DNA from: Dysgonamonadaceae bacterium
Lineage (GTDB): Bacteria; Bacteroidota; Bacteroidia; Bacteroidales; Azobacteroidaceae
DNA: 46,543 nucleotides
Direction of reading: 5' to 3'
Assembly: GCA_031267615.1 (NCBI GenBank)
Contig: JAIRYM010000047.1
Location: 1-46,543 of the forward strand
The notes beneath the pieces are model-generated. The model did no database searches and was not told the origin of the DNA. It saw only the letters and a program-made list of their open reading frames with translations. Position 1 is the stretch's first letter. Each line of letters opens with the position of its first letter. The translations under genes and the position numbers were made by a program. This document shows, one piece after another, positions 723-37,581 of this stretch.

Positions 723-1409
723 TTACGGTATGCTGACTGTCTGTATGGGCGACCAGGGACCGAGCTGACCTTTTTCGTTTTGCCAGCAGATTGAGAAGTA
801 TGCTTTGCGCGTACTGTCAGCCTGGGCGAATTCTATGGTGTGCGGGGTGCGGGTCGCTGTTACCCTGCGTGAGAGTGATGCGGCGTCGACGGGAGGTGTG
901 TCGGTTACTTCGTAGGCGATGACGGCTCCTGTTACTCCGTATGGTTTTGCGCGGGATGCGTGATCGTCGGTAGGCGCAAGTTTCTGATCATGAAAGTGAA
1001 AGCTTAGCCTCAGGAAGTCGAGTATCCTGATCACGAGTACGGGGTGTGTTTTTGGGATCTCGATCGGGGTGCGGATTTTGTCTCGTACCGGTATCCCGAG
1101 GTCTGACCGGTCGATGTCGCTTACGTTTTTGTTGTACCGGAGGTAACCGTTTACCAGATCGCGGGCGGCATTGCTGAACATGTCTGCTTTTTCCTTTCGG
1201 TCGAGACGGTCTGTCTTGCCTGAGTTGGGCAGTTCGGCTTTATCGTTCGCGAGTTGAAAGTTGCTGGCTTTGACTCGCAGGTCTGAAAAGTCGTCTTCCG
1301 GTACGCCCCATCTGGTGATGTTGGGGGCTAATTTGTCGATAAAGTTTCTTGACCAGATTAGCCGCAGACTGTATTTCTGTGGCAGATAGTAAGTTGTTTT
1401 GTTTGCCAT
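723..1409 (-). CDS. Conserved-looking hypothetical protein with fibronectin-III-like C-terminus
   Basis: This 228-residue protein has no signal peptide or membrane segment. The N-terminal half is charged and helical, with pieces such as LIWSRNFIDKLAP, a WGVPEDDF segment and DRSDLGIPVRD. The C-terminal third looks like a single beta-sandwich (GVTGAVIAYEVTDTPP, then YFSICWQNEKGQLGPWSPI), which is the usual look of a fibronectin-III-like domain ending. I recall proteins of this length and pattern recurring in Bacteroidota next to FISUMP-type genes, but I cannot name the family. It is the second gene of the operon, 20 bases after the repeat ORF and 24 bases before the secreted gene. A structural or surface-assembly partner role is inference only. 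Confidence 0.75.
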   Translation of the reverse strand: MANKTTYYLPQKYSLRLIWSRNFIDKLAPNITRWGVPEDDFSDLRVKASNFQLANDKAELPNSGKTDRLDRKEKADMFSNAARDLVNGYLRYNKNVSDIDRSDLGIPVRDKIRTPIEIPKTHPVLVIRILDFLRLSFHFHDQKLAPTDDHASRAKPYGVTGAVIAYEVTDTPPVDAASLSRRVTATRTPHTIEFAQADSTRKAYFSICWQNEKGQLGPWSPIQTVSIP

Positions 1410-3413: not shown

Positions 3414-3880
3414 ATTTTAAAATTAGCCCAATGCGGTCGCGCGCTTCCCAGCGCTGACTCTCCCGCGCCCAGCGCTAACTCTCCCGCGCCCGCCGCTAAG
3501 TTAGCGGAGGGAAGCGCTAAGTCAGCGGAGGGAAGCGCAGAGTTAGCGGAGGGAAGCGCGCAGTCAGCGGAGGGAAGCGCAGAGTTAGCGCTGGGCGCGG
3601 GAGAGTCAGCGGAGGGAAGCGCGAGTTCAGCGGAGGGAAGCGCAGAGTCAGCGGAGGGAAGCGCGCAGTTAGCGGAGGGAAGCGGAGAGTTAGCGGAGGG
3701 AAGCGGAGAGTCAGCGGAGGGAAGCGCTAAGTCAGCGGAGGGAAGCGGAGAGTTAGCGCTGGGCGCGGGAGAGTCAGCGGATGGAAGCGCAGAGTTAGCG
3801 GAGGGAAGCGCGAGTTCAGCGGAGGGAAGCGCGAGTTCAGCGGAGGGAAGCGCTGAACCGCATTGGGCTAATTTTAAAAT
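3414..3880. repeat. GC-rich 21-base tandem array framed by 24-base inverted repeats
   Basis: About twenty units of 21 bases (AGCGGAGGGAAGCGC plus six variable bases) fill 3500-3850. A variant unit (AGCGCTGGGCGCGGGAGAGT) appears inside and, in opposite orientation, in the left 60 bases. The ends 3414-3437 and 3857-3880 are exact 24-base inverted repeats. GC content is strikingly higher than the surroundings. Both strands have an open frame through the array (minus: ALPSANS-like heptapeptides; plus: AEGSAKS-like). Neither has a promoter or a downstream gene, so I do not call a CDS. Confidence 0.9.
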
Positions 3881-35753: not shown

Positions 35754-36860
35754 TCAATCTTTCTTGCAGCGGACAGATAACAGGGCGAACGAGACACGGC
35801 TTTGTCTCCTGCCCACAGTGGCGCTGCCCTTGTAAAATTCCCGAATCCATGGGTAGTTCGGAGATTCGCCGGAACTGCTGGACCAGAATTCCGCCTGCGA
35901 GCCATAGGAAGCCGCCCTATTACTGGCCACGGAACCCACGAGCAAAGCGTCGAAACCATTGTTACTGCGAATGTTGCTCTGGCCTTGAGGACTGGCTATG
36001 CTGGTTCCGACTACTGCGGTCTGGCTCATCATTACCAGCCCGTGAGCCCCGCGGTATTCTGGCATCAGATCCCACTCTTCATTATATGTCAGCCCCCAAT
36101 CATCGTTCCAGGCATCGGTATTCCCTTCGCCATATTTGTAAGTGGTATTGTTAGCATTGGCAATCTCCTTTTCCAGCATATTCCATTCGTAATCGCTGGG
36201 CAAATGCCAGCCTGTGGGGCAAATGCCCTGATATTGAGTTGTACCCGGCGTAAGTTCAACACCCTCGGTGTCTTCTACAGTGACGCCTGTGCGACCACTT
36301 GCCGCTGCCCAGGTGTACAATAATCCATATTCAGGATGAGCTTCAAATTTGACGGAAGTTGGTGCTCCTGTACCTTCTGTCGGATAATTATAATACTTTA
36401 AATCAAATTTATCCGGAGTGGAATTACTAGCAGATCCCACTGTCAGGGCAGTTCCGTCAGAATACCGTGTTGACCGAAGGTTTTCTGTCATCCAGCAGCC
36501 GGCAGCGCCGAAGTAGCCAACAGAATAGGTATTCTGTCCATCCGTAACACTCGGCGGACAGATGCACGCCTGTATCCACTCCGCGCCGTTCCAAGTTTCA
36601 ACGCACAGGGTCGTAGTGTTGAAAATCTGCAAGCCCATAGCTTTGCCTGTTTTTTCGGCATTGAAATCACTGCTCAGTTCAAGAGCTTCACGCTGTGCGG
36701 CGGTGAGTTGCGGCAATCGCAACCCTCCTGTTTCGTTACTTACAAGTTCCAGGATTGAAAAATCCTGCGGACTGTCGAGCGACCCGATTGTTACCTGCGC
36801 CGAAGCGCCCAATGCGTTCAACATGAAGAACGCCGTCATTGTTAAAAAAATCTTTTTCAT
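35754..36860 (-). CDS. Secreted FISUMP-domain protein (TIGR02145 type)
   Basis: This 368-residue exoprotein has a signal peptide (KKIFLTMTAFFMLNALGASAQ). Residues 22-95 are a module shared with the gene at 1-698 (QVTIGSLDSPQ, FSILELVSNETGGLRLPQL, CVETWNGAEWI). The remainder is a FISUMP domain: YSVGYFGAAGCWMTENLRSTRY, CPTGWHLPSDYEWNMLEKE, FWSSSSGESPNY, and RVSFALLSVRCKKD at the end. The domain was first noted as a major paralogous family in Fibrobacter succinogenes and is common in Bacteroidota; its function is unclear. The start ATG overlaps the stop of the upstream repeat ORF (ATGA), indicating coupling. It ends in a strong terminator. Confidence 0.9.
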   Translation of the reverse strand: MKKIFLTMTAFFMLNALGASAQVTIGSLDSPQDFSILELVSNETGGLRLPQLTAAQREALELSSDFNAEKTGKAMGLQIFNTTTLCVETWNGAEWIQACICPPSVTDGQNTYSVGYFGAAGCWMTENLRSTRYSDGTALTVGSASNSTPDKFDLKYYNYPTEGTGAPTSVKFEAHPEYGLLYTWAAASGRTGVTVEDTEGVELTPGTTQYQGICPTGWHLPSDYEWNMLEKEIANANNTTYKYGEGNTDAWNDDWGLTYNEEWDLMPEYRGAHGLVMMSQTAVVGTSIASPQGQSNIRSNNGFDALLVGSVASNRAASYGSQAEFWSSSSGESPNYPWIREFYKGSATVGRRQSRVSFALLSVRCKKD

Positions 36861-37270
36861 TGTGTCCTAAATAATTTATAACATGAATATTTTAAAAAAT
36901 GTTTGTCATGTAAAAAACCAAACGCAGCAGGCATCGTAATTTTTTTATATCCAAATGTAATTTGGCTTGAGCCGAAAGCAATTTGGCTTGACCCGAAAAC
37001 GATTTGGCTTAACCCGAAAGCAATTTGGCTTAACCCGAAAGCAATTTGGCTTAACCCGAAAACGATTTGGCTTAACCCGAAAGCAATTCGGCTTGACCCG
37101 AAGAAAAAGGAAATACCCCCAAATAATTTTGGGATGAATGAAAAACTTTTCCATTCATCCCAAAACATAGAAAAACCGCCCGAAAAAATTTTCGGTCTGT
37201 TTAATACATAGTATATAAATAGATTGTCAGTTACCCGTTCGAGGGGGGGTCGTGTGGCATAAACTGACAC
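36857..37270 (-). CDS. Seven-residue-repeat ORF translationally coupled to the FISUMP gene
   Basis: The frame is open for 137 codons from a GTG at 37270, in the frame next to the upstream 30-codon ORF. Seven heptapeptide units (FGLSQIA-type) occupy about residues 55-105, and the ends are unique (PPLERVTDNLFIYYVL, then MPAAFGFLHDKHFLKYSC). It overlaps the FISUMP ATG by four bases and has the consensus promoter 37346-37375 upstream, so transcription is likely. It may be joined to the 30-codon ORF by a -1 slip or a length change at the C7 tract (37243-37249). It could equally be a translated leader. No known family. Confidence 0.45.
   Translation of the reverse strand: MSVYATRPPLERVTDNLFIYYVLNRPKIFSGGFSMFWDEWKSFSFIPKLFGGISFFFGSSRIAFGLSQIVFGLSQIAFGLSQIAFGLSQIVFGSSQIAFGSSQITFGYKKITMPAAFGFLHDKHFLKYSCYKLFRTQ
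36959..37103. repeat. 21-base tandem array, seven units
   Basis: AATTTGGCTTAACCCGAAAGC-type units begin at 36959, 36980, 37001, 37022, 37043, 37064 and 37085. Units differ mainly at three positions. The array is open on both strands: minus heptapeptide FGLSQIA, plus WLNPKAI. Confidence 0.92.
37127..37165. repeat. 14-base inverted repeat inside the repeat ORF
   Basis: TTTTGGGATGAATG (37127-37140) and CATTCATCCCAAAA (37152-37165) are exact complements around an 11-base loop. It lies between the C7 tract and the 21-base array. It could fold in RNA or serve as a site for a protein. Confidence 0.85.
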
Positions 37271-37323
37271 ACTTTTTCATGCGTCAGTTGAGAATTTTTG
37301 CTGTAGAAGTATTCGATTGCCAT
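37231..37323 (-). CDS. 30-codon upstream ORF ending just after a C7 tract
   Basis: ATG 37323 lies about 20 bases after a consensus start site. The peptide is MAIEYFYSKNSQLTHEKVC, then QFMPHDPPSNG and a stop at 37231. The C7 run (37249-37243 on minus) encodes the Asp-Pro-Pro end, and the stop comes four codons later. A single added C, or a -1 slip at C-CCC-CCC, would continue into the 137-codon repeat frame with no interruption, giving a fused product of about 156 residues. Alternatives are a regulatory leader peptide or a sequencing error in the homopolymer. Confidence 0.5.
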   Translation of the reverse strand: MAIEYFYSKNSQLTHEKVCQFMPHDPPSNG

Positions 37324-37345
37324 TTTATTTTTTATTTTAACGACG

Positions 37346-37375
37346 CAAAGGTAAAACATTAATTTGAAACGGCAA
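37346..37375 (-). promoter_or_regulatory. Consensus promoter of the right repeat/FISUMP operon
   Basis: Minus-strand TTG (37375-37373), exactly 19 bases, TACCTTTG (37353-37346). It is the same arrangement as the promoter of the left repeat ORF. Confidence 0.82.
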
Positions 37376-37581
37376 AAATTATTTTAAAAGTTTTTTTCAT
37401 ATTGTTTTTAACTCAGCCAAAAACTTTACCTTCACCGACGCAAAGTAAAGTAATGCCCACCTGCGCAAAATACGCACCAGCAGGCAAATGAAATATATTC
37501 AAAGATTTACCATTTTGCGGAAGACAAAAGACAAAAAATGGTTTATGAAACAAAAAAGCAGGAAAAATGTAAAAAAAACCA

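Follow-up and report, generated by a model that had tools for sequence, protein, structure and literature searches.

What does a run of seven cytosines do near the end of a short open reading frame (ORF) that stands in front of a gene? The stretch of DNA analysed here (the window) comprises 46,543 nucleotides (nt) of contig JAIRYM010000047.1 from a Dysgonamonadaceae bacterium, and on its minus strand a FISUMP (Fib_succ_major) gene is preceded by a promoter-like site, a short leader ORF ending in a C7 tract, and a second, longer frame that runs from the tract to the gene. We found that this leader is a multi-copy family and not an isolated oddity, and our comparison of its copies supports the view that the joining of the leader to a long, gene-coupled frame depends on the C-tract.

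An earlier note, made from the letters of this DNA alone, had described the promoter-like site, a leader of 30 codons and C7 at 37249-37243 read as Asp-Pro-Pro, and all three hold at base level, as do the adjacent frame, open from 37270 to 36857 (137 codons counted from a GTG inside the leader), its ATGA overlap with the FISUMP gene, and the in-frame slippery heptamer C-CCC-CCC. The stop that the note had placed four codons past the tract is indeed there (TAA, 37233-37231), but is itself the fourth codon after the tract. The parts of the locus, in order of transcription, are as follows.

37346..37376, minus strand: promoter-like site TTTG-N19-TACCTTTG (TTTG at 37376-37373, TACCTTTG at 37353-37346), read from the sequence
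37231..37323, minus strand: leader ORF (ATG 37323-37321, TAA 37233-37231), 30 codons as assembled, codons 1-25 being the conserved family core
37262..37289, minus strand: leader hairpin AACTGACGC...GTGTCAGTT, immediately 5' of the tract, predicted by RNA folding
37318..37322 with 37255..37259, minus strand: outer helix predicted by RNA folding, TGGCA (37322-37318, in the start codon region) pairing with TGCCA (37259-37255)
37243..37249, minus strand: C7 tract, read GAC-CCC-CCC (Asp-Pro-Pro), a candidate switch point, slippery site or recombination seam
37103..37242, minus strand: structured spacer with a predicted hairpin (37195-37180) and a predicted, very stable inverted repeat (37165-37127)
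36959..37102, minus strand: tandem array of 6.9 units of 21 nt, found by repeat search
36857..37241, minus strand: long downstream frame, one C short of the leader frame, ending in the ATGA overlap with the FISUMP gene
35754..36860, minus strand: FISUMP (Fib_succ_major) gene of 368 amino acids (aa), with a signal-peptide-like start judged by eye

The FISUMP assignment rests on a match of the protein to Pfam PF09603 (Fib_succ_major) at 80.1 bits against a cut-off of 33.9 (E 3.2e-22), and the inverted repeat at 37127-37165 was also recovered as a self-match in a sequence search. We take TTTG-N19-TACCTTTG to be the Bacteroidota-type promoter consensus; TACCTTTG is near-invariant in 25 aligned leader copies of the 27 then collected, and our scan of the window for terminators and promoters used a sigma-70-type promoter model, whose coverage such a site falls outside. 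An Rfam scan of the whole window gave one tRNA only above the gathering score, and sub-threshold matches only in the leader region.

Leader copies and their poly-C tracts

When 901 bases around the site were compared with the genome of the window (2,125,300 bases in 128 contigs, 87.6% complete), 59 matches were obtained, several of which extend no further than from the promoter through the leader ORF to the edge of the C-tract. With a covariance model built on the 87-nt leader, 41 copies were recovered in this genome, with E values from 8.9e-22 (best) to 1.4e-7 (weakest), so that the homologous leaders for which the earlier note had proposed a search do exist. Three weak matches to the model in other genomes of the genus (L082-L084 in our numbering of loci; E 0.06-0.84) were judged by eye to be unrelated sequence and were rejected. 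One copy (L035:615-756) lies behind the apparent 3' end of a tRNA gene, judged by eye, and is without the usual promoter.

The model gave no match at E <=0.01 in 37 other genomes of the genus, and a DNA search with the window leader against 57 relatives returned short stretches only, mainly of the promoter part. Within the taxonomic family (45 genomes, stricter filters) a single further copy was found, in a genome of another genus; a pattern scan gave one locus, L067, whose contig number and position are those of this copy. Its leader is a normal member of the family, and its PurF fragment is 67% identical to the PurF of the window and it is therefore from another organism.

Our script re-found 39 of the 41 own-genome copies (all but L080 and L081), together with L067. 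A tract was present in 37 own copies, two of which were set aside for frame scoring, namely L027 (interrupted short tract, no array) and L077 (G-rich contig end), leaving 35. Seven of these run off their contig (L014, L015, L018, L020, L023, L072 and L075), and L024 too lies at a contig end.

Across the 38 copies with a tract (37 own plus L067) the lengths were C14 in 12, C7 in nine, C15 in three, C6, C8, C12, C13 and C16 in two each, and C4 and C5 in one each, with two tracts interrupted. The 13 copies of the window's own leader type (PHD-type) carry C7 in nine cases, on eight contigs, C8 in two, where GAC has become GCC, and C6 in two; the tracts of the other main type (PFYP-type) are mostly C12-C16. 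Tract length differed in 17 of the 29 pairs of copies with >95% downstream identity, and it varies more than the flanks do, as measured between paralogs and not alleles. The variation in the C-run that the earlier note had suggested looking for is thus present between near-identical paralogs, with the same design repeated in other species as described below, but it is not variation between alleles.

The 75 nt of the leader core contain no indel in 26 copies, 23 of them distinct, and its ratio of non-synonymous to synonymous polymorphism (pN/pS) is 0.53 in the leader frame against 0.78 and 0.84 in the other two, which makes the core weakly coding-like. In the majority state of both main types the predicted product is a peptide of 30 aa that ends in PP(PP) plus one to three residues. 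As RNA, the window leader folds with a z score of -3.3, within a range of -1.0 to -6.1 across the ten copies folded, and 95% of the alignment cells of the hairpin are paired.

Reading frames behind the tract

The earlier note had proposed that the gain of one C would join the two frames at this locus; this holds for the window, whose C7 needs one more C, and across the family it is tract length that decides the joining. Of the 35 scorable own copies, four have the long frame already joined to the leader (L025, L029, L032 and L068), 25, the window included, need one more C, and six need one fewer. Among copies of the window's type, 11 of 13, again with the window, are in the same phase. As in a contingency locus, repeat number thus sets the frame, a result that is in silico and concerns the frame only.

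This long frame was compared with the other frames. It is open through the spacer in all 29 copies, against 1/29 and 3/29 for the other two. Through the array it is open in 28/29, whereas the other forward frames are open in 18/29 and 13/29 and the reverse frames in 14, 18 and 11 of 29. Counted by type of array unit, it is open in ten of 11 types and the other forward frames in four and five. The choice of this frame as the longest from the tract introduces some bias, although the spacer alone nearly always fixes the choice; for the ten open unit types the product of the column-permutation probabilities is approximately 5e-5, a figure that assumes the types to be independent.

A repeat row with a period of 21, 42 or 63 was obtained for each of the 29 arrays, although in L017, L019 and L069 the best-scoring row is 104 or 83 instead, and the units fall, sorted by eye, into 11 unrelated types. 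Of the seven heptapeptide repeats of the earlier note, the array is real, at 6.9 units of 21 nt, but it is unlikely to matter as protein, since the unit differs between copies while the 21-nt length and the open frame are kept. We therefore rejected the array as a functional protein domain, its units being unrelated between copies and the spacer having a pN/pS above 1 in that frame. An array of RNA hairpins found partial support only, with 12 of 28 arrays stabler than column-permuted controls (z < -1.64) and the window not among them (z +0.5). The spacer RNA was stabler than shuffled sequence in 21 of 28 copies (z < -1.64), with a z of -4.9 against mononucleotide shuffles in the window, where strong hairpins begin 48 and 78 nt after C7 and weak pairing begins 7 nt after it in the minimum-energy fold. 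Between 36800 and 37560 of the window we counted five terminator-like sites on both strands against 1.1 expected, three of them on the minus strand. A frame that is kept open while its peptide is not kept would fit with the transit of ribosomes mattering, rather than the product.

The end of the long frame could be read against the start of the gene in 21 copies (20 own plus L067). It forms an ATGA overlap in five (the window, L009, L011, L013 and L032), is fused in frame with the gene in three (L029, L033 and L072), overlaps the gene by 14 nt in L067 and stops 2 nt before it in L071.

Poly-C loci are also found in other species of the genus, where C10 runs are uneven, with some in 31 of 36 genomes (overlapping matches counted). 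In one of them (genome G028) leaders quite different in sequence end in C8-C19. Twelve loci were analysed there and nine gave rows, while L113, L118 and L124 have no C7 run on the strand read, the place of L118 being that of L092. Seven of the nine have an open leader, joined in three and unjoined in four. At L128 and L092 the tract, which precedes a glycosyltransferase-2 gene in the former and an MBOAT gene in the latter, is not preceded by an open leader, and L090, L091, L094 and L100 were dismissed by eye as other kinds of tract. A follow-up of further poly-C loci covered 17, of which 16 gave rows (L099 none). The loci with an open leader in G028 and the closely coupled loci of the follow-up are listed here.

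G028, L112: C12, joined; fusion with a PAP2-family protein
G028, L126: C17, joined; ATGA overlap with an HGD-D gene
G028, L130: C8, joined; 1-nt gap
G028, L127: unjoined; the frame would stop 5 nt before a methyltransferase gene
G028, L111: unjoined; the frame would stop 6 nt before the gene
G028, L110: unjoined; the frame would fuse to the gene (WG repeats)
G028, L109: unjoined
G005, L147: unjoined; ATGA overlap
G005, L136: unjoined; ends 1 nt short of an ORF whose start resembles that of the L092 MBOAT gene
G007, L159: joined; ATGA overlap
G032, L149: unjoined; fusion

In the same follow-up L140, L152, L153 and L154 were joined, with coupling looser or none visible (L152 equals L153 in leader and frame), and L141, L144, L145, L155, L156 and L158 were unjoined and lacked exact coupling; of the remaining two, L142 resembles an ordinary gene and L139 a C-rich tangle. 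Two species share one leader family, MYxQFADM, which is joined at C13 in G005 (L154) and unjoined at C18 in G028 (L155). Within G028, L155 (C18) and L099 (C15) are identical over 74 nt of leader, both being at contig ends, so that they might be fragments of one locus. In G003 no such leader was seen by eye at the places fetched around the poly-C tracts of L101-L105 and L108. A scan for the pattern promoter-ATG-C9 with a short gap, which hit two of 38 genomes of the genus against one in a reversed control (three matches against two in G028), is weak evidence; with a long gap it hit seven of 38 genomes against two in the reversed control (one match each). At least three other species (G028, G005 and G007) thus show, as judged from their reading frames, the same logic with leaders that the window-leader model does not recognize, so that it is the design that recurs and not the sequence.

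Readings of the tract

We consider it probable that these loci are a multi-copy phase-variation (contingency) system, in which a shared leader would gate the delivery of ribosomes to the next gene by means of a structured, translation-coupled barrier. A typical copy has a promoter of its own and a short leader ORF ending in the poly-C tract. The sequences show that, depending on tract length modulo three, ribosomes from the leader ATG either stop, mostly within a few codons past the tract, or enter the long frame, which passes through the structured spacer and the 21-nt array and leads to the next gene, with an ATGA overlap or in-frame fusion there in several copies. Slipped-strand changes in tract length would switch this transit. 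After an early stop the bare structured RNA might block the downstream gene, whether by RNA structure, by polarity or by termination, and with run-through ribosomes would be delivered to the gene. The window copy appears to be in the unjoined (OFF) phase.

Several observations weigh against this reading. The frame states are skewed (25/6/4), where free switching might have produced an even mix, although the copies are not independent; in L075, one of the 25 copies needing one more C, the leader stops already before the tract. In the long frame the spacer has a pN/pS of 1.56 and 1.65, so that its amino acids show no sign of purifying selection, and lower values (0.58 and 0.62) were obtained for another frame that is interrupted by stops. 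For the leader, pN/pS is just mildly below 1 at 0.53, with 0.55 in one cross-species pair and 1.6 and 1.39 in two pairs from G023. Covariation in the leader was no better than in shuffles, with no pair changed on both sides, and in the spacer it was marginal against shuffles. The long frame stops 19-87 nt before the gene in ten of the 20 own copies, and 208 nt before it in one more (L010); in other species L109 has no frame reaching its gene, and several loci, such as L144, L154 and L158, are without close coupling. In addition, long tracts may have been miscounted in an assembly of 128 contigs, and C7 is short for frequent slippage, so that the window copy probably switches rarely.

Because 25 of the 35 scorable copies share the offset of exactly one missing C, which is what a -1 shift would supply, the main rival is programmed or constitutive -1 slippage, in which the state of most copies, C7 for the PHD-type and C14 for the PFYP-type, would be the functional one and either a fraction of ribosomes slips by -1 or RNA polymerases on long tracts slip or add C, to give a low fixed expression with no change in the DNA. 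C CCC CCC is formally a slippery heptamer and is in frame, the same offset is reached by two leader/spacer types whose tail phases differ, and the long frame is kept open, all of which such slippage would account for. The stimulatory structure of -1 frameshift signals lies approximately 5-9 nt downstream, and in the window the nearest strong hairpin begins 48 nt past the tract. Ten copies are off the offset (six need one fewer C and four are joined), and the G028 leaders are in mixed phases, with 3/7 joined. In excerpts of the literature, moreover, slippage at proline codons is +1 (PMC7577736), and a frameshift-prone tRNA-Pro is described in another (PMC4519876). Taken together, we regard -1 slippage as unlikely, if the strongest of the alternatives.

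Somewhat less plausible again is an attenuator in which the leader peptide stalls ribosomes at the CCC codons and so refolds the downstream hairpins, sensing EF-P, proline or the state of translation, with frame irrelevant. The indel-free leader ORF, the 30 aa of its product in the state that prevails in both types, the proline codons at the tract and the predicted RNA structure on both sides of it would all suit such a device. It leaves unexplained, however, an open, gene-directed long frame over unrelated arrays, and it sits poorly with copies that are already joined (L025, L029 and L068) and with those that have no leader at all (L040 and L034).

These last two copies bear on a further reading. 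In L040 spacer, array and gene are of the usual kind, but what precedes them up to C11 is unrelated sequence; in L034 hardly anything separates the promoter from the spacer; and L023 and L033 are 98% alike downstream of the tract and 76% upstream. Among 20 long-tract copies, pairwise distances correlated at 0.50 within the leader and 0.85 within the spacer but at 0.18 across the tract (p 0.12), with 0.21 for whole leader against whole spacer (p 0.07) and 0.10-0.21 for other pairings across it (p 0.05-0.20). As the histories of leader and downstream sequence are thus uncorrelated across the tract, the tract may also be a recombination seam, at which loci would exchange their leader and downstream modules. 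The decoupling could also owe something to selection or gene conversion acting on one side of the tract alone. That the tract is chiefly such a seam, poly-C being a short homology for exchanging or inserting a promoter-leader module before many downstream modules, with the frame effects as by-products, would also suit the copy in another genus (L067), but a seam is compatible with a switch and leaves the frame coupling in need of a separate explanation, and we think it improbable.

Finally, an assembly or homopolymer artefact, or decayed and non-functional leaders, would be in keeping with the fragmented assembly, with L014, L015, L018, L020, L023, L024 and L075 at contig ends and L077 running into G-rich sequence, and with most long frames being out of phase, but is very unlikely given an indel-free leader core, a long frame open in 28/29 arrays and the same design with other sequences in other species, and the homopolymer error that the earlier note had allowed for is largely answered by the shared phase of 11 of 13 PHD-type copies, nine of them with exactly C7 on eight contigs.

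Downstream genes, a DGR-like locus and known systems

The signal-peptide-like start of the window FISUMP protein is common to many genes behind leaders. Ten further proteins were scanned, one of which (window 723-1409) is not behind a leader; three matched FGE-sulfatase, one was a BspA-type leucine-rich repeat (LRR) protein with a secretion tail, and six had no family. At L011, from 1433 onward, the first approximately 18 codons are those of an L071-type gene (89% identity) and are followed by a BspA-LRR secreted protein, the gene having been replaced just behind its start. Near FISUMP-family genes at L036 and L038 there are TG/AC dinucleotide runs of 77 and 23 nt, which may be contingency repeats of a second kind.

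FGE-sulfatase and Fib_succ_major are known target domains of diversity-generating retroelements (DGRs), according to an excerpt of one study (PMC4159848). Two reverse transcriptases (RTs) are present in the genome of the window, and one belongs to a DGR-like locus (L133:722-2030) with an RT ORF of 328 aa and a template-like repeat (L133:722-856). Related copies of this repeat lie near the 3' ends of FISUMP/FGE-group genes, some of them behind poly-C leaders (L013 and L037) or a leader-less tract (L040). Changes in the copies fell at template adenines in 16/21 cases for L039, 9/9 for L042, 4/6 for L040, 13/25 for L013, 16/38 for L043 and 0/1 for L037 (26 nt only). The window had no match to the stretches around either RT that would make its FISUMP gene a DGR target.

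More tentatively, we suggest that the tract might serve as both frame switch and cassette joint, with exchangeable promoter-leader modules on one side and exchangeable spacer/array/gene modules on the other, in one scheme of surface diversification, in which slippage would set on or off, recombination would set the pairing of leader and gene, and a DGR would alter, for some targets, what the protein binds, with related species using other leaders.

Homopolymer contingency loci, i.e. phase variation by poly-G/C, are known from a few well-studied pathogens such as Campylobacter, Helicobacter and Neisseria. The loci described here resemble them in having poly-C in a translated frame, length that varies between paralogs and several targets of secreted or surface type, but differ in that the tract lies in a separate short leader ORF, common to approximately 40 loci, with a structured spacer and a 21-nt array behind it. 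Also known are leader-peptide attenuators and translational coupling, with which the loci described here share the short ORF, the hairpins and the ATGA overlap; the regulated variable here would be the length of a DNA tract and not an amino acid. In the vlhA genes of Mycoplasma gallisepticum, as described in part of one report (PMC6258824), (GAA)n lies approximately 40 nt upstream of the transcription start and is active at 12 units. There too many surface-protein paralogs share an upstream repeat with conserved flanks and a varying copy number that is thought to set expression, but the vlhA repeat is a trinucleotide before the transcription start, whereas ours is a homopolymer in a shared leader ORF that would act by frame. 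DGRs share with these loci the FGE-sulfatase/Fib_succ_major targets, (PMC4159848), and a DGR-like locus is present in the genome, its variable copies lying at the ends of some of the genes behind leaders; a DGR alters sequence, however, and not expression, and the window FISUMP is without a match to the template. Our search of the open-licence literature found no title on a comparable system in Bacteroidota, from which absence from print does not follow. If our reading is true, these bacteria would have a large combinatorial on/off repertoire of secreted proteins, with approximately 40 loci of one small genome under one leader, where known contingency loci come from few pathogens.

Three smaller observations concern related features. 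Behind purF the window has another 21-nt array (3447-3853, approximately 17 units of a different unit), where the leader model calls no leader. On the minus strand at 1430-2164 a 244-aa ORF, partly of 105-nt (5 x 21) repeats, precedes the 228-aa gene at 723-1409 and is another leader-like repeat ORF; the 228-aa gene resembles those behind the leaders L021 and L009 (37% and 28% identity). The second RT (L134; 336 aa) adjoins an asparagine-rich ORF and lies beside phage-type proteins, judged by eye, and is possibly part of a prophage DGR.

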